A DNA stretch of 64,000 bases from Tolypothrix brevis GSE-NOS-MK-07-07A. Lineage in GTDB: Bacteria; Cyanobacteriota; Cyanobacteriia; Cyanobacteriales; Nostocaceae. The position numbers and the translations under genes were made by a program. This document shows positions 32,405 to 63,921 of this stretch, one piece after another. Numbering within the stretch: the stretch's first letter is position 1; the number at the start of each line of letters is the position of its first letter. The DNA is taken from assembly GCA_019358985.1 (NCBI GenBank), contig JAHHIJ010000014.1, forward strand, positions 1 through 64,000. The letters are read 5' to 3'. The notes under the pieces were generated by a model. It was not told the origin of the DNA. It saw only the letters and a list, made by a program, of their open reading frames with translations, and made no database searches.

Positions 32405-35400
32405 TTAAACCGTCACACCTTCCAACTCCTCATCTGTCAACTCATACAACTGACGCAACTTATCTAACTTCTCTGTATCAGCATTCCAAAAACCGCGTCC
32501 TGAAGCTTCTAACATTCTCCCGATAATATTGCGGAAAGCTTCTGGATTCGACTTTCGCAATCTTTCCGCCATCTCTGCATCTAATGCGTAAGTATCTGCG
32601 GCTTGGTCGTATACCCAATCATCCGTAAAATCCGCAGTACCCCCCCAACCAATCAAAGCCGTCATGCGTTGGGAAATTTCAAACGCACCACCAGAACCTT
32701 GATTAGCCATTGCTTCAGCCCATTTAGGATTTAGCAACTTGCTGCGATACTCCATCCGCAGTAAATCATCGAGATTGCGAGGTGTGGTATCTTTCGAGAA
32801 ACTTTCCACAAAGCTGGTTGTAACCTTCTTCTTACTTTGTTTTTCTGCTGCCTTTTTCAAACCGCCAGTATTAGCGTAATATTCTTGAATATCAGTCAAA
32901 CCGTATTCTACCGAATCGATTTCTTGAACAATGCGATCGCTTGTTTTTAACAACTCCATTAATACTTCTGGTCTAGCTTGACCCTTATCCTCTCTACCAT
33001 AACTGAAAACATTGCGACCTTGCCAAGTATCCCCCAACTCATCACCAGATTCCCAATTACCATCAACAATTCTATCATTTACCAACGAACCAAAATCACC
33101 AGCCGGATTAGAAAATAATCTCGCTGAAGCATTTTCAATACCTTGTGCTTTCAAAATCAAAGCATGTTTTCTAATAAAATTATTATCTTCAGATTCATCC
33201 GCATCAGCCGCACGTTGAAACAAATCATCCAACAACTCAATAATATTGACAAAACTATCACGAAAAATACCAGATAAATTTGCCAAAACATCAATTCTGG
33301 GATGTCCAACCTCAGCCAAAGACATTAATTCATAACGAACAATGCGTCCCGTCCCCTCCTTCACAGGTTCAGCCCCCACCAACTCCAAAAGAATACCTAA
33401 AGACTCACCCTTCGTCTTAATTGCATCCAAACCCCATAACATCACCGCCACAGTTTCCGGATATTTCCCATACTCATCTAAATGCTGCGAAATAATTTTT
33501 TTACCTATCTCCCTCCCCCTTTCATAAGCACCAGCAGAAGGCATTCTATAAGGATCTAAAGCATGAATATTCCTCCCCGTAGGCAACACACCAGAACCAT
33601 CCCGCAACAAATCACCACCAGGCGCAGGCATAATATACTCACCATTTAAACCCCTTAAAAGATTCGTCAACTCATCAGTAGATTGCATCAACAAACCTCT
33701 AATCTCCTCCTCCTCTTGGCGCTCTTGGTTACTTGGCGGTTCGTTGCCAAAATAAGCCTCCAAATACCCCCTCATCTCCTCATCATTCGGTGCTTCCCCC
33801 AAAATATGCAAACCCGAAGAAAAAAGCCGAGATTCTAACACTTGCAAATACTCATACAACTTCACCAAATAATCATTAAAAGCATGACCACTAAACAGCC
33901 GCACATTCTCCGGAGTAAACGAAATCCCCAAACGTTTCGCATCATCAAACGGACAATCAGCATCTAACCCACTATCAACAATCTTCTTACAAATCACCTC
34001 CTTCAAAGCATAATTTTTTTCCGAATCTTCTCGATACTCAGAAATCAAATCCCGCAAAGACATTAACTCCTTATACAAACCAGCACGTCCATAAGGAGGA
34101 ACATTGTGAGAAATCAACACACCATAACCGCGACGCTTCGCCAAAATAGATTCAGAAGGATTATTAGCCGCATATATATATAGATTAGGCAAATTTCCTA
34201 ACAAAATATCCGACCAAGAATAACCCGTATTTCCTAACGGCGATCCCGGCAACCATTCCACAGTACCGTGCATTCCAAAATGCACCACAGCATCAGCTTG
34301 AAACTCATTTTGCAGCCATTTATAAAAAGCAGCATATTGAGGATGCGGCGTTAAATCTCGTTCAAACATTAACCGCATCGGATCGCCTTGTATACCTAAA
34401 GGTGGTTGTACACCAATCCAAATATTTCCTAACTGAATACCGCCAATATTAAACTCATCACCGGAAGTTTTAATCCCCGTACCCGTGAGAGATTTCCATT
34501 GTTTTTCGATGCGAGATGTGCTAAGATATCCCAACCATTTTTCGAGAGTTTTGGCGTTGACAGTATTAACCGCAGATGAACGCGAATGAACGCTGATATC
34601 CATCTGCGTTAATCTGCGTTTATCTGCGGTTCCTATCTCTTCGTCCGCGTCTTTCACCTGACGAATCAATTCTTCCCCATCTACAGGCAAATTGCCCACA
34701 GCATAACCTTGATTTTGCAGTGCGTGGAGAAAATTGAGAAGCGATCGCGGTACATTTAATAATGCAGCTGTTCCTGTTGCACCGTACCCAGGTGGAAACC
34801 CATACAAAATAATCGCTATTTTCCTCTCTGACGGAGGTTTTCGACGCAACGCAACCCAACTTTTCACTCTCGCAATCAATCTCTGCACTCGTTCCGGAAC
34901 TAGATAAATTTGCTCTCCCACCAACCCACCGAGAGGAATTGTATCAATAGCGCCATCCAATTCTGGCAATGCATATAATACGACACTTTGCAAGCCTCCG
35001 ATACCTTGACGCGTCCAAGAGTAAATATCTTGAATTAGCAATGGTGCAGCGACAATGTAAGGTACATTCTTGGCAGCAAGGATTTTTACCGCAATTTGCG
35101 TTTGGCGTCCTGCTTCCATTGAACCAGCAGGACCACCCACCAAAGGAAAGCCAATTGTAGATACGATCGCATCCACTTTTACTGCTTCGTTGGAGAGTGA
35201 AGGTGTTTGAATATTACCATTATTTCGTTGCTGCGTTTCATAGTCACTGGTCATCCAATCGCGGACGGCAACGTGTCCTTCAACACCATTAATAAAAATG
35301 GGTAAAGGTATCAAACCAGCTTCTTCAAAACTACGAATTAATTGCGGAATATAAGGTTGTTTTGTAATAACGTGTTTGCGATAAAGTAAAATTCCAATAA

Positions 35401-36181
35401 CTGGGGAGTGGGGTAGAGACGTTCCGCCGGAACGTCTGTACGAAAGTGGAGACGTTCCGGCGGAACGTCTGTACGAAAGTGGAGAGTGGGAATTTTTTAT
35501 TATTCCCCTCTCCTCATACCACTTTAAATATTCTCGCGGAGATGCAAAAAAGCCTTGATAATCGGGATGAAGCAATCCCATATTAGGGGTTTCAATGGGT
35601 GGAGGAATTTCGCCTATTTTTAAATCTAAATATTTTTCTGCTAATATCCAAAATAATGCAGCTACGTTTTCTGCACCACCAGCATTCCAATAACCATAGA
35701 TAATTAACCAGTTGCGTAAGTCTTGGACTTTTTGCACTGGCACAAATTTGAGAAGTTTGGGACCAATTTTTAAGAAGCTGATGTAACCTGCAAGTTTATC
35801 TTCTTCTCGTCCGTTGCTAAATTTATCAAGGATGAATTTAACTGGTTTGGGCATTCCTTTCGGTCTATCACCGATAGCAAAATCACCCAATTTAGTTAAA
35901 CTCATCAATTCTAAAGCTGACTCAAAGACCAAACGGATGGGAATTTGAGAAACGCGATCGCGTAACCACAAAACTTGGTCATAATCAAATAGCAAGCTGC
36001 CAAAAAACACATCCGCGTTATGAAGTGCTGCTTCCACCTCGGTGCGTTTGGTGGTAATATCGCGATCGCTAAACACGCGGATATCCAACTCAACACAGCG
36101 CGAGTTAGCTTGTGAAGCTGCTTTTCTGTACAAATCAGCGTTGAACGATTCAAATCCAGCAATCAAAACGATGCGTTTCAT
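32405..36181 (-). CDS. Magnesium chelatase subunit H / CobN-type large subunit
   Basis: A 1,258-residue large chelatase subunit. The N-terminus has the DUF3479-type domain (MKRIVLIAGFESFNADLYRK). Core blocks are VVHFGMHGTVEWLPGSPLG and APGGDLLRDGSGVLPTGRNI, and the end is GRMLEASGRGFWNAD. ChlH binds protoporphyrin IX and, with ChlI and ChlD, inserts Mg for chlorophyll. The protein is somewhat short for ChlH (usually around 1,330), and a second ChlH-like or CobN paralogue is common in cyanobacteria, so the metal is not certain. Two palindromic repeat insertions lie in frame: residues about 229-257 (period-11 SPLSYRRSAGT) and about 515-538. Both fall in what look like surface linkers. Confidence 0.9.
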   Translation of the reverse strand: MKRIVLIAGFESFNADLYRKAASQANSRCVELDIRVFSDRDITTKRTEVEAALHNADVFFGSLLFDYDQVLWLRDRVSQIPIRLVFESALELMSLTKLGDFAIGDRPKGMPKPVKFILDKFSNGREEDKLAGYISFLKIGPKLLKFVPVQKVQDLRNWLIIYGYWNAGGAENVAALFWILAEKYLDLKIGEIPPPIETPNMGLLHPDYQGFFASPREYLKWYEERGIIKNSHSPLSYRRSAGTSPLSYRRSGGTSLPHSPVIGILLYRKHVITKQPYIPQLIRSFEEAGLIPLPIFINGVEGHVAVRDWMTSDYETQQRNNGNIQTPSLSNEAVKVDAIVSTIGFPLVGGPAGSMEAGRQTQIAVKILAAKNVPYIVAAPLLIQDIYSWTRQGIGGLQSVVLYALPELDGAIDTIPLGGLVGEQIYLVPERVQRLIARVKSWVALRRKPPSERKIAIILYGFPPGYGATGTAALLNVPRSLLNFLHALQNQGYAVGNLPVDGEELIRQVKDADEEIGTADKRRLTQMDISVHSRSSAVNTVNAKTLEKWLGYLSTSRIEKQWKSLTGTGIKTSGDEFNIGGIQLGNIWIGVQPPLGIQGDPMRLMFERDLTPHPQYAAFYKWLQNEFQADAVVHFGMHGTVEWLPGSPLGNTGYSWSDILLGNLPNLYIYAANNPSESILAKRRGYGVLISHNVPPYGRAGLYKELMSLRDLISEYREDSEKNYALKEVICKKIVDSGLDADCPFDDAKRLGISFTPENVRLFSGHAFNDYLVKLYEYLQVLESRLFSSGLHILGEAPNDEEMRGYLEAYFGNEPPSNQERQEEEEIRGLLMQSTDELTNLLRGLNGEYIMPAPGGDLLRDGSGVLPTGRNIHALDPYRMPSAGAYERGREIGKKIISQHLDEYGKYPETVAVMLWGLDAIKTKGESLGILLELVGAEPVKEGTGRIVRYELMSLAEVGHPRIDVLANLSGIFRDSFVNIIELLDDLFQRAADADESEDNNFIRKHALILKAQGIENASARLFSNPAGDFGSLVNDRIVDGNWESGDELGDTWQGRNVFSYGREDKGQARPEVLMELLKTSDRIVQEIDSVEYGLTDIQEYYANTGGLKKAAEKQSKKKVTTSFVESFSKDTTPRNLDDLLRMEYRSKLLNPKWAEAMANQGSGGAFEISQRMTALIGWGGTADFTDDWVYDQAADTYALDAEMAERLRKSNPEAFRNIIGRMLEASGRGFWNADTEKLDKLRQLYELTDEELEGVTV
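34568..34631. repeat. AACCGCAGAT-type palindrome inside the chelatase gene
   Basis: Outer arms AACCGCAGAT and ATCTGCGGTT are perfect complements, and inner copies of AACGC alternate with them. It encodes GTADKRRLTQMDISVHSRSS in the chelatase frame. Related copies lie in the dehydrogenase/cyclase gene at 63032 and 63152. Confidence 0.8.
35412..35495. repeat. Two tandem 33-bp type 2 palindromic units inside the chelatase gene
   Basis: Each unit holds GAGACGTTCC and GGAACGTC arms plus TGTACGAAAGTG. The 33-bp period adds exactly 11 codons, so the reading frame is kept. The same arms occur in the intergenic type 2 copies. Confidence 0.85.
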
Positions 36182-53508: not shown

Positions 53509-53620
53509 AGACAGATCGCACCCAGAATTAGGAATGCGATCGCTCTTACTATATCAGCTAATAGAGTTATCTTCATTTAATTGAGGGAATAATCTACATC
53601 TAAATTTTAGGGAAAATAAA

Positions 53621-53857
53621 GTGTTAAAAGTTAGCGTTGAAGAAGCAGCTATTAATTTAAAAAATCTCTTAGAGCAAGTGGCTAAAGGAGAAGAAGTTAT
53701 TTTAATAGACGAAAATCAAGTTGTAGCTCGTTTGGTTCCTCCACAAAAAAAAGAACAGCGTTTAGCTAGTATGAAACAATTTCGAGAAGCGCTTGTTGTT
53801 AAGGGAGAACCTTTAAGTGCAACTATAATTAATGCACGTATTGAGGAGCGCCATTGA
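53621..53857 (+). CDS. Phd/YefM-type antitoxin
   Basis: A 78-residue protein starting at GTG. The first half (VSVEEAAINLKNLLEQVAKG EEVILIDENQVVARLVP) has the Phd/YefM fold, with a strand-helix-helix-strand DNA-binding module. The C-terminal half is the disordered toxin-binding tail. The stop overlaps the start of the PIN toxin gene by four bases, the normal coupling of a type II pair. Confidence 0.85.
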   Translation: MLKVSVEEAAINLKNLLEQVAKGEEVILIDENQVVARLVPPQKKEQRLASMKQFREALVVKGEPLSATIINARIEERH

Positions 53858-54276
53858 TTTATCTGGATACAAGTATTGTTGCTCCTTTATATTGGCTAGA
53901 GGCATTAAGTGATACAGTTGAGGAGCTAGTATTAAGTGAATCTGAGCTTGGTTTGAGTCAATTAGTTGAGGTGGAATTTGTTTCTGCCTTATCCCGTCGG
54001 GTTAGAATGCGTGAAATATCCCAAGATGACGCAACAACTATAGTCGAAAGGTTTCAAACTGATATAGATAGCGGTTTTTATACTCGTATTAATCTGGAAA
54101 CGATTCACTACCACTTAGCGCGTGAGTGGATTAGTCGGTTTACAACACCACTGCGTACACTTGATGCTTTACATTTGGCTGTTGCATCCCAAAATAATAT
54201 TAGGTTGGTAACGGCGGATGCGGCTTTGGCTGCAAGCGCTCAGTTTTTGGGAGTTAATATTATTTTATTACAGTAA
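53854..54276 (+). CDS. vapC: VapC-type PIN-domain toxin
   Basis: A 140-residue PIN nuclease. The N-terminal Asp lies in IYLDTSIVAPLYW (D5), a second acid in VEVEFVSALSR, and the C-terminal pair in TLDALHLAVASQ and LVTADAALAA. These are the usual PIN metal ligands. Start is TTG at 53854, overlapping the antitoxin stop. It would cleave RNA when freed from its partner. Confidence 0.88.
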   Translation: MIYLDTSIVAPLYWLEALSDTVEELVLSESELGLSQLVEVEFVSALSRRVRMREISQDDATTIVERFQTDIDSGFYTRINLETIHYHLAREWISRFTTPLRTLDALHLAVASQNNIRLVTADAALAASAQFLGVNIILLQ

Positions 54277-54359: not shown

Positions 54360-55442
54360 CTACCTTAATGAGCGAAAGATGACGCGTCCTAAACAATCTT
54401 CTTGGTTAATTCGCGCATATACCCGCAGACATGTTAACACTTCTCCGGGTGTACCGCCGCAATCTAGTTGTAAGTCATCTTTGGAAAAAGCACAGATATC
54501 TGCGTAAAGTCCGGATAATTGGCGAATTCGCACATCATAGCCGGCGTTGTTTGCTTTATCAGCTACTTTTTTCAGGATGCGTCGCGATTCTTGTTGTAAT
54601 TTTCCCCACCACGAATAGCGTTCGGCTGGAGGAACGAAGATTAGGGAGTGTATTGCTTCGTCGATATCAATCCAAGCACGCAGAGTTAATAAGGGATATG
54701 CATTTTGTTCAGCTTTTTGGATGCGTTGAAAGCGATCGCTTAAAGCTTCTATATATTGAGTTTTCTGTTCTGGTTTTGAATGCAAAGATACAACATCAAA
54801 GCTAAAAATACTCTTTAAAGCATGATGTAAATCTGGTTCAATTTCGATAAGTTTTATCAACAAACTCACCATATATGCAAGTAGATACATATCATTTGAT
54901 TCTTGTCCATGAGTCTTTTCATTTTGAGACAACTGCAAACCTTGGACATTGACACTACCGCTGAGTCCTGGATAAATAATTTCATCGCGAATAAAAGGAA
55001 GTTGGTATAAATTTGAATTATCCTCAATAGCACCAGCTTCTTCAGCAAGATTCAAAGCATGTTGACGCCAATATGTAGCTACATCCTCAGGAATTCTTAA
55101 CAGCTTTCTTTGAATTTCGTTCCACAAATCTGAGTCAGTTTGGCTTTGAAGTGGTGAATTTCCTAAATATAAAGTTAGCTCTTTGTCATCATTAAATTCA
55201 TCGCGCAAGCGTGTTAGTTTTAATTCATTTGTGGACGTGATATTATTTAAAGGGGCAACGGTTGAAGGTTGTAAAAGATGACAAAGTTCTTGCAGCACTT
55301 CGTCGCATATTTTCGCTCCTGGATCGTCAGAAAATTCTGCTTGAGCTTTTTTCAGAGATGCTTCTAGTCCGTACAAACTAAACCGTAATAATCGGGCTAA
55401 TTCTGAGTTTTCTACTTCTAAAAGTCGGCGTAAGTGCTGCAT
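54360..55442 (-). CDS. Unrecognised helical protein of the dynamin/Hsp70-like cluster
   Basis: A 360-residue soluble protein with no signal or membrane segment. It is mostly helical (LARLLRFSLYGLEASLKKAQ, YRQHALNLAEEAG). The C-terminal part has WGKLQQESRRILKKVADKAN and YADICAFSKDDLQLDCGGTP. I do not recognise the family. It is the third gene, 197 bases after the Hsp70-like gene and in the same direction, with no other gene between. It could be a partner or effector, but sequence alone does not show how. Confidence 0.65.
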   Translation of the reverse strand: MQHLRRLLEVENSELARLLRFSLYGLEASLKKAQAEFSDDPGAKICDEVLQELCHLLQPSTVAPLNNITSTNELKLTRLRDEFNDDKELTLYLGNSPLQSQTDSDLWNEIQRKLLRIPEDVATYWRQHALNLAEEAGAIEDNSNLYQLPFIRDEIIYPGLSGSVNVQGLQLSQNEKTHGQESNDMYLLAYMVSLLIKLIEIEPDLHHALKSIFSFDVVSLHSKPEQKTQYIEALSDRFQRIQKAEQNAYPLLTLRAWIDIDEAIHSLIFVPPAERYSWWGKLQQESRRILKKVADKANNAGYDVRIRQLSGLYADICAFSKDDLQLDCGGTPGEVLTCLRVYARINQEDCLGRVIFRSLR

Positions 55443-55458
55443 AATAAATTAGGAGTTA

Positions 55459-55520
55459 GGTAGAGACGTTCCGGCGGAACGTCTGTACTTAGGTAGAGAC
55501 GTTCCGCCGGAACGTCTGTT
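55459..55520. repeat. Two type 2 cores in tandem
   Basis: Two copies with GTAGAGACGTTCC and GGAACGTCTGT arms, one with a CCGG centre mirrored (GGCGG vs GCCGG). They lie between the helical and Hsp70-like genes. Confidence 0.75.
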
Positions 55521-55638
55521 AGGAATTAAAAAATTAGAAAAGAATGGAGAAATAATTTTTCTCACGCAGAGACGCGGAGGCACGGAGGAGAAGAAGAATC
55601 ATGATTTTTTCAAGTTAAATATTTACAACTCCTAACTA

Positions 55639-58600
55639 TTAATGAATACCACAAAATGGATCGCGTTCTTTATCAACTTCGTTGGGTTGTAATTCTAATT
55701 CAGCGCGAAAAACACATCCTTCTTCTTTAAGACATTCTTCATCTGTCGATGTCCAGTAAGGAACTTCACCTGCATGGATGCGGAGAATGCCTTTCTCATC
55801 AAGGGTAACATGATATTGACAAGGATAATCTGTGGTTATTTCTGGTTTAGTTAGGGCGCCAATTCTGATCCATTTTTTGGTGTTTGTTTGAGCATTTGTT
55901 TGATAAACGTAGAAGGTGTGCTCACTGTTTTGAGGAAAGGGAGGTAAGGGTTTACTGATTAAACCAGTTCCTGTTTCTTGTAAGCGATCGCGTATATAAC
56001 GAAATTCTTTGATAGATTTACTATCATTACTTTCTGACACAAATACCAAATGATAAGCATCTGGTTGATCGACTGTTGCTGACTCGATCACATTGACTGC
56101 AATGTCACCATTATTCAGCTTTTTATTGGGACGCTCAATGGCAATATTCCAATTCAATTTACCATCAGTAAATAACTTTGAGCTTTCGGCAGTGGGGAAG
56201 TGCGCTAATATTGCTATTCCGACATCAATACCAGGAACATCAATTAAATAATGCGGATTTCCTCGACAAAGTAACACGTTAAATAGTAGTGTTTGATCAA
56301 TTTCAAATTGAACTTTAATTTTTTTCAGAAAATCAGATTCTTCTATCTTCAATTTCTCCATCAAAGTTTTACCATCAAAGCTGCCCCAAAGCCGCAAATC
56401 TCCATCTTCGTAATCTTGACGATAGATGATGTTGCTTAATTGTATCCCTTGCCAATTAGTGCGGACTTTCGCTACAGATTCCCTATCAGCTAATTGATAA
56501 AGTTCTTGTCCTGCTTGAAAGATTGGCAGCAAATCGTTGCTTTGAGTTTTGCGTTTAAAGTTGCAAGGTAAATAATAAAATAAATTTTTGACATCTATTT
56601 CTAGTTGGTTTGCTCCCTTACGTAGCAATCCTTTAGATTCTTCTGGATCGAATCTGAGTCTTCGCAGTTTTTCAGCGTAGCAAGCACCGGCAGAGGTAGC
56701 TAATTTAGTAAACTCTAAAACAAAGGTAATTCGCTCTGGATTCCAAACAAAATATTGTGATTTACTAAATTCCTGGTAAATTTCTTGCTGCACTAAATCA
56801 AGATTGCAAGTTTTCCCAGATAGAATTAACCAATCAACTTTTTGTCCGCTACTTAGCAAGCGACTTTCCATCAATCCTTTAGCGATACCAATTGCTTCTT
56901 TAATTGCTGTAGCTGCGGTTCTTTCAAATTGTTGACTGTCTAAGGTGACGTTAATATTATGAGCATTTTGGATGTTGAATTTAATGCTACTTTGTGTTAA
57001 TAATTCTGAGATTTGTTGTTCAGAAACAGTGAAGGTTAAAGTAGAACCATCTGCTGGTGACTTTTGTCCTAATTTGAGTTTTGCAGCTTCTGCAAGTTCC
57101 CAAAGGGCGTAAAATGTTTGTAAGCGTTGAGGTGCTTGTTGCCAACGAGTAGGTAACACTTTTTCCGCAGTATCTAGAGCATCTTTGTAAGCTGCATCAC
57201 CTTCAGGATTTTCTTTATCTACACATTTTAAAAGACTGCCGCTTTTAAATTTTCCTTGTTCTAAAAAGCGCTCGTTTAATTCGGAATTAATTAAATCTTC
57301 TAATTTATCGCTTTCTAAAGAACCGAGAGTTATTGCAGTGAGCAAAGAATCTGCGATCGCTACTTTCAAAAGACGAAACATTCGCAGTGTAATTAACTCA
57401 CCACCTAATTGCAAATGACCAGATGAACCTAATAGTTTGGGAGTAAGTCTATAGTAGCGTCCTCCAAGTCCTCTATCTTCATTATCTGCAAAAAAGGGAG
57501 TTTTATCTTCTAAAGTTAATTCAATTAAAGCTAAATCAGTTGTTCCCCCACCAATATCTAAAACAAGCACATTTTGCGACCATTTATTTTTTTCATGATG
57601 ACAACGAGTTTTGAAAGATTCAATTCCAATATTCAAATTACCACCAAACTCTCGCCATAAAAAGAATATTGCCACAGAAACAGCTTCATCATAAGCTGTT
57701 TGTACATCATCAATACCAAGTTGTTCCACAAGTTCTTTAATTTCCTTGCGAATAACTGGGGGGGCAACAGTTGGATAAGTCACAACTGCCGTCAAAAAAT
57801 CCCCTTCCGAAAATTTGCGTCGTGAGCGTTGCCGATAATCTTCAGTTAACTCAACAAGATGTCCCCAAGCAGCTTGAATTAACTGATTAACAGTAATTGT
57901 AATTTCTTCGCCTTCTATAATAACTCCAAAAGACCGCTCTTGACCGAAATATCTTTTAGGTGAATGATGAAACTTGCTAATAATTTCCTTCAAAGAACCG
58001 CTAGTTCCTTGAGCGATCGCCTTTTTTCTGTTGTCTCTTGCTTCTCTCCCCATCCTCAGTTTTAAAGCAGTCAAATTAGAAACTTCCAACTCACTAGGAA
58101 TCTCCGTATCTCGACGGTCAATATCTAACACAACCGGGATGAGATTTTGCGATTCTAGAGTCGGAACGCGGAACACTTCATGATATATTTGGTAAAGTTT
58201 TTTGCTCACAGCACGACGAAAGCGATCGCTTGTTCCCAAACATAATTCAATTTGACGAATTGCTTCTAAAAATCGTTCCTTATTATCACTTTCAAAAACT
58301 TCACCTAACTGACTTGGTTCTATTTCCAGATTTTTGCTAATTTCCGCGATGAACTTATCCCACTCACTTGCGCTAATATCTGGTAAAGCAATTGCAGCGG
58401 GAGAACTCAACCATTGTGCCATGCGATCGCGCAAACGTATCTCTTGTTCTCTCGGCAGAATTTCCGCGATAGGTACTTCAATGGGGTCGAATAATGTAAC
58501 TGTAGAATTTGATGTGCCAAAATCTATCGCAAACCATCCGGGAAATCTTTTTTTTGGTTTCTCGGTTTTGTTAATTTGTTCAAAGTTCATTGTTAATAAA

Positions 58601-58641
58601 TCGGTTATTTTTTTATTATTAATGGGTTGGAAAGGGTTCAT
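55639..58641 (-). CDS. Hsp70/actin-fold ATPase-like protein (SrfB-like)
   Basis: A 1,000-residue protein. The phosphate-1 motif is FAIDFGTSNSTVTLFDP (Asp40), phosphate-2 is LVLDIGGGTTDLALIEL (about 358-374), and a third is WLILSGKTCNLDLVQQ. These define the actin/Hsp70 ATPase superfamily. Its length is far above DnaK (about 640). The C-terminal part of roughly 300 residues resembles none I know, and it lacks a DnaK substrate domain. Size and layout resemble proteins annotated as SrfB, which I treat as a tentative match. The upstream dynamin-like GTPase is the other half of the resemblance. The protein would be cytoplasmic. A later ATG at 58590 is an alternative start. Confidence 0.8.
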   Translation of the reverse strand: MNPFQPINNKKITDLLTMNFEQINKTEKPKKRFPGWFAIDFGTSNSTVTLFDPIEVPIAEILPREQEIRLRDRMAQWLSSPAAIALPDISASEWDKFIAEISKNLEIEPSQLGEVFESDNKERFLEAIRQIELCLGTSDRFRRAVSKKLYQIYHEVFRVPTLESQNLIPVVLDIDRRDTEIPSELEVSNLTALKLRMGREARDNRKKAIAQGTSGSLKEIISKFHHSPKRYFGQERSFGVIIEGEEITITVNQLIQAAWGHLVELTEDYRQRSRRKFSEGDFLTAVVTYPTVAPPVIRKEIKELVEQLGIDDVQTAYDEAVSVAIFFLWREFGGNLNIGIESFKTRCHHEKNKWSQNVLVLDIGGGTTDLALIELTLEDKTPFFADNEDRGLGGRYYRLTPKLLGSSGHLQLGGELITLRMFRLLKVAIADSLLTAITLGSLESDKLEDLINSELNERFLEQGKFKSGSLLKCVDKENPEGDAAYKDALDTAEKVLPTRWQQAPQRLQTFYALWELAEAAKLKLGQKSPADGSTLTFTVSEQQISELLTQSSIKFNIQNAHNINVTLDSQQFERTAATAIKEAIGIAKGLMESRLLSSGQKVDWLILSGKTCNLDLVQQEIYQEFSKSQYFVWNPERITFVLEFTKLATSAGACYAEKLRRLRFDPEESKGLLRKGANQLEIDVKNLFYYLPCNFKRKTQSNDLLPIFQAGQELYQLADRESVAKVRTNWQGIQLSNIIYRQDYEDGDLRLWGSFDGKTLMEKLKIEESDFLKKIKVQFEIDQTLLFNVLLCRGNPHYLIDVPGIDVGIAILAHFPTAESSKLFTDGKLNWNIAIERPNKKLNNGDIAVNVIESATVDQPDAYHLVFVSESNDSKSIKEFRYIRDRLQETGTGLISKPLPPFPQNSEHTFYVYQTNAQTNTKKWIRIGALTKPEITTDYPCQYHVTLDEKGILRIHAGEVPYWTSTDEECLKEEGCVFRAELELQPNEVDKERDPFCGIH

Positions 58642-58715
58642 ATTTGTATAAAGTTTGGATTAAGAGAAACGAACCACGAAGGCACCAAGGACACGAAGGA
58701 AAGAGAGTAAGATAT

Positions 58716-58795
58716 AACAGTAATAAAAATCTACCTACCGTCGTAGAGACGTTCCGCCGGAACGTCTTTACATTGTAAGTAATTTACTGGACATT
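58716..58795. repeat. Family A MITE, left end missing
   Basis: AACAGTAATAAAAATCTACC and TACCGTCGTAGAGACGTTCC precede a type 2 core (58743-58771), then GTAAGTAATTTACTGGACAT. The TATCATGTCC-type end on the left is missing. It lies between the two large cluster genes. Confidence 0.75.
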
Positions 58796-58889
58796 ACATA
58801 ACATATAATTAACCTAATTTCTAAACTAATTCCTTTCTCCTCCTTTCTTCCTTAGCGTACTTCGCGTCTTTGCGGTTCGTTTAAAACAA

Positions 58890-61457
58890 TCAAATCGAAT
58901 TACTCTCAAAGTTAGCAATATCTAAAAGAATCTGCAACCAACTAGGAATTTCCGCATTGATTTGCGATTCATCTGTTGCAATATATCTTAACAACGCTTC
59001 CTTTTTAGAAATATTTTGTAAACAAGGAACAATCTGATCTAAAATTCCTTCTAGTTCGGCATTAACTCGCTGATTCACTTCACTAACATATTGCACAAGA
59101 TGCAAACTGGCACTAGCGGTAATTTCATCTCGCAGTCGCAGTACTAAAAGTTGATGATTAGCGGTTCTGGGGTTGCTTTGGCTTCTTTCTGGCGCCCAAT
59201 CAAAGATTTGTCCAATGTTGTGTTTATCGTCTTGACGCGCTAAGGGAAACATGTTTGCAGGGATGCTGGTTTTATCTTTACTAGTAACTTCGTCAGTTAT
59301 AGCTTTTTGCCATTGGTTGGGATCGCATCCTAAAAGCAGTTTGTAAAATAAATCTGCTTCTTCATCACCGAATTTTTGTTGAATGTCTTGCTCTTGTTCG
59401 GGATGGAGAATTTCTCGTAAGCGATCGCGTTCTTTGGCTATCTGATTTGATAACTTACTTAATGAGTCTACCACTGCTTGACTCAGGCGATCGCGTGCAA
59501 ATTCTTCTAGTTCTTTAATTGTCTTTTCAAATGCTGGATAAAAATCATCGCTTTTAGTTGGGAGGGAACTATTAAGTCTATTTCCTCTATCAAATAATTT
59601 ACCTGCCGCACCTTTTGATTCTGTTAATGATATCATTCCATTGTTTGCTTTGTTGAAAAGCAAAGTCCACTGACTCCAATTAAGTATTCTATAAGTTAGT
59701 TCGTCTTTCACCACATCGCTAACTGTAATTCCTCGTTTGTCTTTGAGTGGTTCTTTACTTAATTCTTTTTGGAATTTTCTGTATGTTTTATCTAAGGTTT
59801 CCACGGCAAAGCGTAAGTCAATAAAAGATTGACTTTCTGCCATTGGTATGCCTTGTTCTTTAATTTCATCTAAGATATTTTTCAACTTATCTTGTTGTTG
59901 ATGCAAAGCATTAGTAGCTCGACGAGTGTCTTCATAAAGTTGCTTGAAACCGTGAGTAGCTACGTGGGTTTGAATCAATTCTCGCAGTTTGCTAATACTG
60001 CCATCTTGAGCAAAGTAACTCAATTGTCTGCCTAGATGACTGCGGGAATCAGATTCTAACAAACGTTCGCTTAAATGTCCCCATTTTTGTTGCAATCGTT
60101 TAGAACGATCTAAATAATCAGGATAATCTAAGTTAGCTAAAAACTCTGGTGAACCTGCTTTCACTTTACTAGAACGTTTGGCTAAATCAGCTAATCCTAA
60201 AAGTGGTGATAGTAGAAGAATTCGCTCTTTTTGGCTGGTAAATGCAGATGCACCTTCAAGAGTTGTTTGCAACACTTTGAGTTTTTCGCAAACGGTGTTT
60301 TCTTTTAAAGGATTATCTGCATTATCGTTAATTAAGCTATCAAGTTCTCTTTCACCACCTTCACTTTCTAAAGGTAGTTGATCGAAACGTCCTACACCTA
60401 CTAAAATTAAATCTTTGAGGTCTTGTCCTGGACGTTGCTGTTGCATCATCGTGAAGATTTTGTTAGCGCGATCGCTTCCTGGAGATTTACCATTTAGCAA
60501 GACTAAAATTGTTTGTACTTCTGCCAATTCTCGCAACGACAAAAATGTATCTCTCACTCCGGAATTAGCAGCACCTAATCCGGGAAAATCTAATAAAATA
60601 AACTCTGATGTTCCACTTTTTCCGGAAAGATCCCAAATATCTTTTGATATTTTTACCTCAATATCTACACGACGAATCAGCGGAAAGCTATTTTGTAATA
60701 ACTTTGCTGGCAGTCTTTGAGGTGCATTTGGTAATTTAATATGCGTTGGTGGTAAATCTTTAAAGTCGAGAGTCTGAATTGCCATCGGTTGATCAGCTAG
60801 CGTCAGTCCATCGCGAGCAGTGGTAGCATCAATATTGTAGCGCCTACCAGACATCGCCGCACCATAAGAATTATAAGCGCGAATGAAAGTTACTAACTCG
60901 CGCAACAGATAACGCAACTCCAAGTTTTTACTATTGTTCCACGTTTCTTCGCACCAGCTAAGAATATCATTCCAGGTTTTCAGCTTTTCTTGGGGTACAG
61001 AAGATAATCCCGCTGGGATTGTTCTTTGGTTTGCCTCCCCCAGCATGAAGCGCAAGCACTCGTTAACCTCGTCGTGAGTCAAATACTCCACAGTAAAATT
61101 ACTCAGTTGCGTAGTTTTAAAGTCTTCTTGCGGTTTGAGGTGAATAGCGGTAACATTGCCTGTGGTAGGATTCTCACTAATTGGTAAAGCATCTGCGTAA
61201 CCAATCAAACTGCCTAAAAGCAAAGTTTTCCCACTACTGAATTCACCCATCACGCCGATTTTAACACTTGATGTCGCAAGTTTGATAGTTTTCTGTGCAG
61301 CTTCCCGCAGGTGAATCAGACAGTCATCTAGACTAGCTGGAACCCAATCCTCTTGTTGTGAAGGCTGTTGCGGTACTGAGTCTATTTTCCGGAGAATCGA
61401 TTCACCATACCTTTGAAAACGATCCAGTTTTTCTGATTCCATAGGGAAGTTTTCCAC
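58890..61457 (-). CDS. Dynamin-like GTPase
   Basis: An 855-residue protein. G1 is VMGEFSSGKTLLLGSL (about 70-85), with G2 threonines in NPTTGNVTAI. G3 is LLDFPGLGAANS (about 288-299). The G4 position reads VGVGRFDQLP, with the usual T/N-K-x-D altered to G-R-F-D. After about residue 480 the chain is long and helical (LKNILDEIKEQGIPMAESQS), as in bacterial dynamins. GEFSSGK is the P-loop of dynamin-like proteins, which remodel membranes or assemble on targets; some are phage-defence proteins. It is the first gene of the cluster with the Hsp70-like gene 248 bases downstream. No membrane paddle is evident. Confidence 0.85.
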   Translation of the reverse strand: MENFPMESEKLDRFQRYGESILRKIDSVPQQPSQQEDWVPASLDDCLIHLREAAQKTIKLATSSVKIGVMGEFSSGKTLLLGSLIGYADALPISENPTTGNVTAIHLKPQEDFKTTQLSNFTVEYLTHDEVNECLRFMLGEANQRTIPAGLSSVPQEKLKTWNDILSWCEETWNNSKNLELRYLLRELVTFIRAYNSYGAAMSGRRYNIDATTARDGLTLADQPMAIQTLDFKDLPPTHIKLPNAPQRLPAKLLQNSFPLIRRVDIEVKISKDIWDLSGKSGTSEFILLDFPGLGAANSGVRDTFLSLRELAEVQTILVLLNGKSPGSDRANKIFTMMQQQRPGQDLKDLILVGVGRFDQLPLESEGGERELDSLINDNADNPLKENTVCEKLKVLQTTLEGASAFTSQKERILLLSPLLGLADLAKRSSKVKAGSPEFLANLDYPDYLDRSKRLQQKWGHLSERLLESDSRSHLGRQLSYFAQDGSISKLRELIQTHVATHGFKQLYEDTRRATNALHQQQDKLKNILDEIKEQGIPMAESQSFIDLRFAVETLDKTYRKFQKELSKEPLKDKRGITVSDVVKDELTYRILNWSQWTLLFNKANNGMISLTESKGAAGKLFDRGNRLNSSLPTKSDDFYPAFEKTIKELEEFARDRLSQAVVDSLSKLSNQIAKERDRLREILHPEQEQDIQQKFGDEEADLFYKLLLGCDPNQWQKAITDEVTSKDKTSIPANMFPLARQDDKHNIGQIFDWAPERSQSNPRTANHQLLVLRLRDEITASASLHLVQYVSEVNQRVNAELEGILDQIVPCLQNISKKEALLRYIATDESQINAEIPSWLQILLDIANFESNSI

Positions 61458-61968: not shown

Positions 61969-63921
61969 ATGGAGATTCGCTCTATCCTAGATATTACCAA
62001 CTCCTTCTTACTTCAGCAAGTTGCGCCCAAAGCTAACGAAATAGACAGCAACCCCCAAGCGCTATATCAAGCACTCCAAGGTTTGGGAAAGTTAGGTTTA
62101 CTAGCGCTAAAAACTGACAAACAACTCAGCGAAGCGACTTTTGGCGACTTTCAAGAATTAATCGCCAGATATTCTGGTGCTTTAGCTTTTGTGCAAACCC
62201 AACATCAAAGTGCGGTAGGGATGCTCGTCAACAGTGACAACTCAGCATTACAACAAGCATACCTGAAGCGCATGGGCAACGGTGAAGTTTTAATTGGAGT
62301 CGGTTTCTCGCATTTGCGACGACAAAGTGAACCCCTAACCTTAGCCGTACCTGTTGCGGGAGGATATCAGTTAGATGGAGTTGTACCTTGGATAACTGGC
62401 TGGAACTTATTTCAACATTTTATCATCGCCGCGACATTACCTGATGGTAGTGCAGTTTTTGGTATCGTCCCTTTTGTGCAGACATCTCAAATCACATTTA
62501 CCACCCCAGCACAACTGTCAGCAATGACATCAAGCAATACAGTATCTGCCACTTTAACTCGCTGGTTCCTACCTCAAGAGCGCGTAGTTTCTATTAAACC
62601 ACCCGGATGGATTCACGAAAACGATAAAAACAACATTTTGCGGGCAACTTTTTTAGCTACAGGATGCGCTTTTGCAGGTTTAGATATTATTGAAGCAGCT
62701 AAAGAGAATAAATCACTACCTTTTATTAACGATGCCTTTGAATCTTTATTACAAGAATTGACTCAGTGTCGTACTCTTATTAGAGAAGCGCAACAAAAAC
62801 CGATTGTAATAGCAGAAAGCTTGCAAATGCGAGCTTGGGCAATTGACTTAGCAACGCGAATCGCTCACGCTGCTGTTACCGTTTCCAGTGGAGCCGCTAA
62901 TTATATGCATCATCCGGCACAACGAGTATATCGGGAAGCTTTAGTATTTACGGTAACAGGACAAACTACCGCAGTTATGGAAGCAACACTTCAGCAGTTA
63001 ACGCGATCGCCAATTCAAAATAAAGAATTTCAACCGCAGATGGACGCGGATAAACGCGGATACTCTTTATTATATCCGCGTTCATCTGCGTTTATCGGCG
63101 GTTCAAAACTAGAACAGTTGACGCGATCGTCAATTCAAAATAAAGAATTTCAACCGCAGATGGACGCGGATAAACGCGGATACTCTTTATTATATCCGCG
63201 TTCATCTGCGTTTATCAGCGGTTCAAAATCCTCCGTCATCCATCTAAGTCATATAATTGATACAGATATTCCGCAATGGGAAGGCGATCCTCCAGTAGAA
63301 TTTGAGACTGTAGCAGAATTAGAAAAAGATGGTTATTATCTGCGACGTTTTTCTTTGGGGGAACACAGCGCTACTCATATCAACGCTCCGAAAAGTTTTC
63401 ACGACTTTGGTGTGGGAATTGACAAATACCCTGCCGAATCGTTGATTGTGTCGGCAGTAGTTATAGATATTCGCGCCAAAACTACAGTTAATTTTGATTA
63501 TACCCTGACTGTGGCTGATGTTCTGGCTTGGGAAGAAGAATATGGCGAGATTCCCGCAGGAGGTGTAGTTTTACTGTATACGGGGTGGCAAGAAAAATGG
63601 TGTGATAAAGATGCATTTTTTAACCAAGATGCTGAAGGAAGTCTGCATTTTCCAGGGTTTGGCAGTGATGCTGTCCAGTTTTTGCTAGATGAACGCGAAA
63701 TTGCTGGGGTAGGAATTGATACTCACGGTGTAGATTCTGGGCAAGATACAAGCTTTACTATCAACCGTTTGGTGTTGGAGAAACCGCGCATTGTGCTGGA
63801 GAATTTAACTAATTTGGATCAATTGCCACCAAGAGGAGTTATGCTGGCGATCGCACCTCTATTATTAGAAGATGCTTCTGGTTCTCCGGTTGGGGTGTTG
63901 GCTTTAGTGCCAGGAATTTAA
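61969..63921 (+). CDS. Acyl-CoA dehydrogenase-like / cyclase family fusion
   Basis: A 650-residue chain of two domains. Residues 1-345 resemble an acyl-CoA dehydrogenase-type flavin enzyme (LLQQVAPKANEIDSNP, VPWITGWNLFQHFIIAATLP). Residues about 425-640 are a cyclase-family domain (VIHLSHIIDTDIPQWEGDPP), whose metal motif reads EHSATHINAPKSFH, where the family usually has H-x-G-T-H-x-D-x-P. The Gly and Asp are replaced by Ala and Asn. The linker (about 345-423) is a 40-residue unit repeated twice, PQMDADKRGYSLLYPRSSAF, encoded by AACCGCAGAT-type palindromes. In other cyanobacteria such domains are likely separate proteins; the fusion may be due to the repeats. Confidence 0.85.
   Translation: MEIRSILDITNSFLLQQVAPKANEIDSNPQALYQALQGLGKLGLLALKTDKQLSEATFGDFQELIARYSGALAFVQTQHQSAVGMLVNSDNSALQQAYLKRMGNGEVLIGVGFSHLRRQSEPLTLAVPVAGGYQLDGVVPWITGWNLFQHFIIAATLPDGSAVFGIVPFVQTSQITFTTPAQLSAMTSSNTVSATLTRWFLPQERVVSIKPPGWIHENDKNNILRATFLATGCAFAGLDIIEAAKENKSLPFINDAFESLLQELTQCRTLIREAQQKPIVIAESLQMRAWAIDLATRIAHAAVTVSSGAANYMHHPAQRVYREALVFTVTGQTTAVMEATLQQLTRSPIQNKEFQPQMDADKRGYSLLYPRSSAFIGGSKLEQLTRSSIQNKEFQPQMDADKRGYSLLYPRSSAFISGSKSSVIHLSHIIDTDIPQWEGDPPVEFETVAELEKDGYYLRRFSLGEHSATHINAPKSFHDFGVGIDKYPAESLIVSAVVIDIRAKTTVNFDYTLTVADVLAWEEEYGEIPAGGVVLLYTGWQEKWCDKDAFFNQDAEGSLHFPGFGSDAVQFLLDEREIAGVGIDTHGVDSGQDTSFTINRLVLEKPRIVLENLTNLDQLPPRGVMLAIAPLLLEDASGSPVGVLALVPGI
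62998..63237. repeat. 120-bp tandem duplication of an AACCGCAGAT palindrome in the fusion gene
   Basis: Two copies at exactly 120-bp spacing. Inside each, CCGCAGATGGACGCGGATAA faces ATCCGCGTTCATCTGCG (63032-63103 and 63152-63223). The copies differ by only a few bases (C/T at 63010/63130, G/A at 63098/63218). Confidence 0.9.

Follow-up and report, generated by a model that had tools for sequence, protein, structure and literature searches.

Described systems and the gene trio

Heterocyst-forming cyanobacteria are a main model of bacterial multicellularity. Many signature genes of the heterocyst clade have no assigned function, and only part of the membrane machinery for heterocyst necks, septa and thylakoid rearrangement is known. 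The described systems closest to the locus reported here are the bacterial dynamin-like proteins (BDLP of Nostoc punctiforme, DynA, LeoA and SynDLP), the Hsp70/DnaK chaperones, and the srfABC operon, which comprises the GTPase SrfC, the Hsp70-like SrfB and a third protein, SrfA. Additionally, alr1146, alr1147 and alr1148 of Anabaena PCC 7120 are published as heterocyst-specific genes with no assigned function (PMC4365693; for alr1146, also PMC2823733). Two of the three rose 8- to 9-fold at 12 h after nitrogen step-down (PMC4365693); in Simm's table, alr1147 rose only about twofold and was missing from the cluster of one strain (code Nos2). PMC4365693 also names actinobacterial relatives. Among the matches listed, the literature searched yielded no described system that combines an Hsp70-type ATPase and a third protein with a dynamin-like GTPase, nor such a pairing, in line with the initial annotation, which had proposed a candidate undescribed system.

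We analyzed a 64,000-nucleotide stretch of the Tolypothrix brevis GSE-NOS-MK-07-07A genome, hereafter the window. As first annotated, it carries three large genes on one strand with repeats between them:

58890 to 61457, minus strand: C, dynamin-like GTPase, first of the set; ORF of 855 aa from a GTG
58642 to 58889: C-B gap of 248 bases, with one copy of a 21-base palindromic repeat
55639 to 58641, minus strand: B, Hsp70-type ATPase; ORF of 1000 aa
55443 to 55638: B-X gap of 196 bases, with two copies of the 21-base palindromic repeat
54360 to 55442, minus strand: X, orphan protein predicted to be mostly helical; ORF of 360 aa

The window contains 10 copies of the palindrome and shuffled sequences contain 0; three of the copies lie within the two intergenic gaps. 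In many relatives, a longer B gene, which includes an N-terminal domain, begins at the site of the C-B gap.

The median dN/dS was 0.08 for C, 0.07 for B and 0.13 for X, indicating purifying selection on all three, which argues against chance ORFs. For this comparison, 59 loci were entered and 51 compared. Those left out were partial sequences shorter than 85% of the length, one member of every identical C pair and loci lacking a gene; X of two genomes was taken from their second locus. A single B pair gave a dN/dS of 1.53, probably from a disrupted N-terminus of one member (L067), and was left in the median.

Upstream of C, the NtcA box GTAN8TAC was found in 4 of 43 loci and the DIF hexamer also in 4 of 43, once inside the C gene. 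As neither motif is conserved there, NtcA or DIF control of the trio was rejected. A conserved promoter-like block, TTTTTTGTGTTATAAAACTCACAG, precedes C in 41 of 53 loci when sought with a loosened pattern; this pattern was picked once a k-mer count had been made, whose top 8-mer occurred in 26 of 40 loci. Given that the window itself lacks this block and that the loci are relatives of each other, it was taken as a lead only. No nitrogen-specific motif is recognizable in it.

The encoded proteins

C and B belong to two nucleotide-hydrolase classes, C as a Dynamin_N GTPase and B, by its motifs and lobe II fold, as an Hsp70-type ATPase. C matched Pfam Dynamin_N (PF00350) with 36.0 bits against a cutoff of 27 over residues 67-116, and the divergent C of locus L050 reached 29.7 bits, above the same cutoff; these matches span only profile positions 1-49 and 1-58, respectively, of 168. 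The G1 motif GEFS[S/A]GK[T/S] was present in all 42 rows containing the region (in the remaining row of 43, L071, C is split and the G1 region is missing), and the G3 motif DFPGLG was present in 43 of 43. At the G4 site, all 43 rows read GRF[D/N]QLP (D in 36, N in 7) and depart from the canonical [T/N]KxD, which leaves the nucleotide preference uncertain. C has no sequence relative among solved structures, and simple hydropathy gave no transmembrane-like segment (maximum of 1.11 in the window protein and 1.51 at the top of 43 rows). The annotated GTG start at 61457 may be wrong, since a conserved methionine, M6, aligns with the starts of relatives; from the alignment, the true start is likely near 61442, giving 850 aa. 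One set of 41 loci used in the analysis includes some genomes twice (e.g., L010 and L065).

In B, the phosphate motifs DFGTSNS (residues 40-46) and DIGGGTTD (362-369) were invariant in 14 rows. Lobe II of the predicted model, whose mean pLDDT of 41.7 makes it usable only in or near that lobe, matches Hsp70/DnaK structures and has the Hsp70-type lobe II fold. Against the Pfam HSP70 profile, the window protein stayed under the cutoff (18.2 versus 20.6 bits). Residues 664-1000 matched no Pfam family (best E 0.17), and the model there lies mostly below a pLDDT of 50. In most relatives, B has an extra N-terminal domain that the window's lineage lacks and that was not found elsewhere in the window's genome; this new domain looks ancestral and lost about six times, the window's lineage included.

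X had no credible family in Pfam (best E 0.01) or NCBIfam (best E 0.022), each searched with 13 members. Its model is helical and of low confidence (pLDDT 51), too poor for a structure search. The hydropathy of X was 1.39 in the window and up to 1.93 in some relatives, and in B a single segment comes close to the usual threshold (1.61 for the window protein, at most 2.03). The B segment lies within a helix of the Hsp70 lobe, and the segments of B and X were therefore not taken as membrane anchors. These results bear out the initial description of a GTPase with an intact P-loop and G3 and an altered G4, an Hsp70-like protein with both phosphate motifs, and an unrecognized third protein.

Distribution, descent and competing readings

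Searches of 217 genomes of the window's family detected C in 211, B in 210 and X in 209. By hand tally, 208 carry all three genes, five carry none, and four carry a partial set, most of these four being fragmentary assemblies. Across 292 genomes sampled from the phylum, C, B and X matched the same 32, every one in the window's family, and none of the 260 genomes outside it. The searched family was taken to be the heterocyst-forming one, inferred from named loci; the trio thus has the distribution of a heterocyst-clade signature, present across the heterocystous family and absent from the other cyanobacteria sampled. The trio is missing from G321, G329, G447, G448 and G459, with a completeness of 88% for G447 and at least 95% for the other four. 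G447 and G448 form part of genus g149, which we presume to resemble the diatom symbionts of the genus Richelia in genome size; if it is Richelia-like, heterocysts can form without the trio, which counts against our main reading.

The pairwise distances of C, B and X agree with each other, indicating congruent evolution. Co-occurrence, joint absence and congruent evolution show the genes behaving as a unit, as expected from the proposal that they form one system. Our main reading, held tentatively and at slightly less than even likelihood, is an NTP-driven machine with three components in the heterocyst-forming family, vertically inherited and kept as a unit.

The alternative that survives best is a stress-related or housekeeping machine of general use in the heterocystous family, engaged in membrane repair, proteostasis or division in all cells, with an incidental rise on nitrogen loss. 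Near-universal presence, usually as one match per genome and even in genomes as small as G051 (3.8 Mb), fits this alternative, as do the purifying selection and the upstream regions of C, with no conserved NtcA or DIF motif and, in many loci, a TTTTTTGTGTTATAAAACTCACAG block carrying no recognized nitrogen-specific motif. However, none of the 260 sampled phylum genomes beyond the family has the trio, which would be odd for housekeeping genes, and the 8- to 9-fold rise of two of the three probable Anabaena orthologues also speaks against it (PMC4365693). We consider it possible but doubtful.

A resemblance to the SrfB/SrfC pairing had been suggested from the outset. One candidate reading is therefore a SrfABC branch in cyanobacteria with the same unassigned job, and the kinds of parts agree. 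In the window protein, SrfB (PF07520) gave B a better E-value than HSP70 did (2.4e-5 versus 8e-4), and it matched the ATPase core of B in the same 32 phylum genomes (E 1.2e-6 to 1.8e-4). However, the match in the window is short (positions ~510-583 of 992) and under the cutoff (23 versus 27.1 bits); it exceeds the cutoff in 5 of the 32 genomes, still extending to position 626 at most. The window's C had no match to SrfC (PF10139) at E up to 1. With a weak SrfB match of about 70 residues and no SrfC match, the profiles reject SrfB/SrfC membership, the suggested resemblance comes down to that short stretch of B, and descent as a SrfABC branch appears improbable.

The suggestion of a defence complex, here an anti-phage system fixed in the family, fared worse. 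Bacterial dynamins can delay phage lysis, as PMC9950537 describes for DynA, and PADLOC models gave hints: LeoA for C (E 1.6e-4, in the P-loop region, 89 of 855 residues) and PDC-M61B for B (E 0.01, in 14 of 14 members). No defence model matched C or B over the greater part of its length, and X matched none. Searches by tblastn of B and X in plasmids and of C in phages gave no match, and the one plasmid match of C spanned 80 residues at the P-loop of a Leisingera plasmid dynamin. In viral contigs, two short peptide patterns each for B and C, a probe of limited reach, retrieved no relative. No full-length relative of the trio proteins was found in the plasmid, phage and viral searches covering these protein and database pairs. 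The distribution is not patchy; near-universal, congruent presence in one family and absence elsewhere in the phylum sample leave the defence reading unsupported. A defence island was rejected on distribution and the mobile-element searches, and we regard anti-phage defence as highly unlikely. Presence in nearly all genomes of the heterocyst-forming family and in none of those tested outside it points instead to an undescribed cell machine of these multicellular bacteria.

The initial annotation would have been undone by genes not conserved as neighbors; we found adjacency kept in most genomes examined, with gene order mostly conserved among relatives and changing flanking genes. Adjacency is broken in G051 and G174, where X is unlinked, and in G401, where C lies ~440 kb from B, and the gap from C to the B core reaches 1350 bases (L064), so a single transcript is not assured everywhere. 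Despite these long gaps and broken linkages, three unrelated genes merely staying neighbors are scarcely credible, since all three are retained where linkage is broken, are all-or-none in good assemblies except G314, are jointly missing from five genomes, give only partial matches together in G325, and often have a C-B gap of only ~40-60 bases where B has the N-terminal domain.

A putative machine and its known counterparts

In the three-part machine that we favor, C would assemble on a membrane under GTP control and bend, tether or stabilize it; membrane remodeling by C is an inference from its GTPase class. B would spend ATP to load or dismantle C or a C-X assembly, acting as an Hsp70-type ATPase with no recognizable DnaK client domain, and X may be an adaptor or client joining C and B. 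If the expression published for the probable Anabaena orthologues is a guide, exhaustion of fixed nitrogen would raise production of the machine, which might serve membrane or septum remodeling in differentiating filaments. A more specific version is a dedicated differentiation machine that originated a single time, together with the heterocystous lineage. In it, an Hsp70-type ATPase and an adaptor specific to the family would drive a dynamin-like GTPase, and the whole would reshape membranes or septa as a filament cell becomes a heterocyst; we judge this version somewhat unlikely. The main reading joins three signature genes into one unit with recognizable engines and is directly testable in Anabaena PCC 7120.

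On length, order and adjacency only, alr1146-alr1148 are probably C, B and X. They are likewise three consecutive, same-strand, clade-specific genes, and alr1146 encodes 847 aa, the same as C in two of our loci (L098 and L104); however, the available text of PMC4365693 and PMC2823733 does not describe them as a system or by domain. B shares the phosphate motifs and the lobe II fold with Hsp70/DnaK chaperones but differs in the longer distance between these motifs, the extra N-terminal domain of many relatives and a C-terminal third that matches no family. With the SrfABC operon, the trio shares the SrfB-like ATPase core of B and a set composed of a GTPase, an Hsp70-like protein and a third protein, whereas B lacks a full-length SrfB match and C lacks an SrfC match. 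Finally, C resembles the bacterial dynamin-like proteins in its Dynamin_N match, G1 and G3, and differs from them in its altered G4 and in adjoining a gene for an Hsp70-type ATPase.

Three adjacent genes and their surroundings

Three long ORFs on the minus strand of the window follow one another in the order C, B, X, going from high to low coordinates:

58890-61457, minus strand: C, dynamin-like GTPase gene
55639-58641, minus strand: B, Hsp70-type ATPase gene
54360-55442, minus strand: X, orphan gene encoding a predicted mostly helical protein

The window C passed the Pfam Dynamin_N cut-off (36.0 bits against 27), and its start is likely the ATG near 61442, 5 codons inside the GTG ORF. The initial annotation described a GTPase with an intact P-loop and G3 and an altered G4. 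Across 43 loci compared, G1 was kept in the 42 having that region and G3 in 43, and G4 reads GRF[D/N]QLP. With start codons chosen by us, C measures 842-869 aa in all but one of the 43 loci that carry it. The two phosphate motifs reported for the Hsp70-like protein were both kept across 14 aligned rows, and the window B matched SrfB and HSP70 in Pfam, both below threshold. X, described as unrecognised in the initial annotation, gave no credible match in the Pfam search.

A 21-base palindrome, AGACGTTCCG[CG]CGGAACGTCT, was found at 10 sites in window 25286-58767 (one with one mismatch) and at none in shuffles. Three copies lie in the gaps of the C-B-X set, where repeats had been noticed, and two lie at 35417-35470, within the long ORF 32405-36181. 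The ORF 61969-63921 combines a part resembling acyl-CoA dehydrogenase with a Cyclase-family part through a linker containing the segment EFQPQMDADKRGYSLLYPRSSAFI twice, seemingly a translated intergenic repeat; in two relatives (L004 and L005), the corresponding ORFs are long too, with 634 and 627 aa. A PIN-domain (VapC-like) gene, 53620-54276, sits on the opposite strand beside the 3' terminus of X, and a small candidate antitoxin frame was recognized by eye directly upstream of it. A promoter-like block, TTTTTTGTGTTATAAAACTCACAGAAATT, is conserved upstream of C in L007, L049, L059, L098, and other loci, in many of them about 45 bases ahead of the start codon used; it was not found in the window.

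Distribution, linkage, and descent

We submitted a phylum sample of 292 genomes to separate profile searches for B, X, and C. Each profile matched 32 genomes, one identical set belonging to the window's cyanobacterial family (f1), and none matched any of the 260 sampled genomes outside f1. From the names of 13 loci in the named genome collection and general taxonomy, we infer that f1 is the heterocyst-forming family: 11 loci carry heterocystous genus names; of the other two, one comes from an uncultured cyanobacterium, and the second, under the title Plectonema, clusters with Tolypothrichaceae.

Searches across the 217 genomes of f1 detected B in 210, X in 209, and C in 211. A hand tally of the match tables gave 208 genomes with all three genes, five with none (G321, G329, G447, G448, and G459), and four with partial sets; three of the latter (G312, G382, and G456) are assemblies with a completeness of 72-89%, and in G314 the contig ends within B. 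Of the 206 assemblies with completeness of at least 90% and contamination of at most 5%, 201 have B, 201 have X, and 202 have C. A second search with E up to 0.1 found X in none of the seven B-less f1 genomes; at that limit C matched in four, two full-length (G312 and G314) and two through a weak P-loop only. G325 gave three partial-scoring matches for each of C, B, and X, which suggests joint decay.

Several genomes showed further variation. G325 measures 4.9 Mb, versus 7.8-7.9 Mb in its two genus mates. In G340, G341, G343, G346, G364, and G377 (8.4-12.4 Mb), B, X, and C were each matched twice, possibly through duplication of the whole set. C is split in two frames in L071 (G019), and a single in-frame stop interrupts it in each of G430 and G432, with B and X matched in these genomes.

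In most of the genomes examined, the three genes proved to be conserved neighbours. Order and strand were identical in 13/13 named loci, one of which (L002) has X cut by the contig end, and the flanking genes vary, save among the closest relatives. In all 41 loci of a second comparison that hold both C and B, the two share a strand, with 46-1350 bases from C to the Hsp70-core start of B. X comes next after B in 39 of the 41, at a gap of 28-335 bases. Exceptions to the linkage are G051 and G174, in which X is located elsewhere, and G401, in which about 440 kb of the same contig separate C from B and X. None of these genomes has lost any of the three genes, which argues that their tie is functional, not only positional.

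Pairwise distances over 51 loci were correlated (C-B 0.98, C-X 0.90, B-X 0.89); none of 999 permutations reached such values. Median dN/dS was 0.08 for C (63 close pairs), 0.07 for B (62), and 0.13 for X (63); one B pair stood out at 1.53. By tblastn, B and X had no match in 72,556 plasmid records, where C had a single match of 80 residues, and C had none in 50,697 phage records; pattern scans confirmed no relative of B or C in viral contigs. Because the genes are near-universal in f1, restricted to this one family, congruent, and retained and absent together, we read C-B-X as a lineage-specific core machine rather than a defence island; a defence complex was one possibility raised in the initial annotation.

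The N-terminal domain of B

The B gene is longer in many relatives, with a conserved domain at its start:

L009, 9611-10015: N-terminal domain of B, about 135 aa, found also at 32 other loci

Three examples searched matched no Pfam family. Where B carries this domain, the real C-B gap is shorter, often 40-60 bases. Among the 51 loci of the B-core tree, the domain was scored in 33, including L083, which has it only in part, and was missing in 18. Six changes are required on the tree, and well supported branches force at least five of them; under midpoint rooting, the domain is present in the two deepest rows. The simplest reading is therefore that it was lost about six times in f1. A profile search recovered the domain in the positive control (G191) and in none of 16 genomes without it at the locus or without the set, including the window's genome.

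Possible roles of the trio

The Anabaena PCC 7120 genes alr1146, alr1147, and alr1148 are likely the counterparts of C, B, and X, respectively. C has 847 aa in L098 and L104, as does alr1146, a Nostocales protein according to the 2010 Signature-proteins paper (PMC2823733). Simm et al. 2015 (PMC4365693) count 93 genes in heterocyst-specific clusters, of which 51 have no assigned function (Table 6); in that table, the three form the sole run of three consecutive numbers. Under nitrogen starvation, the changes given for them at 12/21 h are 9.1/5.3, 2.5/1.8, and 8.7/7.7, respectively (PMC4365693, values from Flaherty et al. 2011). The same source gives outside hits in Streptomyces aurantiacus for alr1146, in Frankia EUN1f and S. 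aurantiacus for alr1147, and none for alr1148, and shows strain code Nos2 without alr1147. In the literature searched, the three tags were named only in these two papers (PMC4365693 and PMC2823733), and the matches listed held no description of a C-B-X-like set.

Clade restriction and the published expression of the probable orthologues would be consistent with a part played in nitrogen step-down or in the development of heterocysts, although the rise of alr1147 is weak (PMC4365693). Also against this role, no conserved NtcA or DIF motif was found upstream of C, and five f1 genomes lack the set. Two of these five may be Richelia, which makes heterocysts.

As for the working of the proposed core machine, the engine classes suggest that C would perform GTP-driven membrane work under ATP-driven control by B, and X would serve as an adaptor. 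The initial annotation likened the trio to SrfB/SrfC, which belong to the SrfABC operon (SrfB PF07520, SrfC PF10139). Kinship was not found at family level, the SrfB match of the window B being sub-threshold; nonetheless, in Pfam SrfB outscores HSP70 on the B core, and the trio may work in a manner similar to SrfABC.
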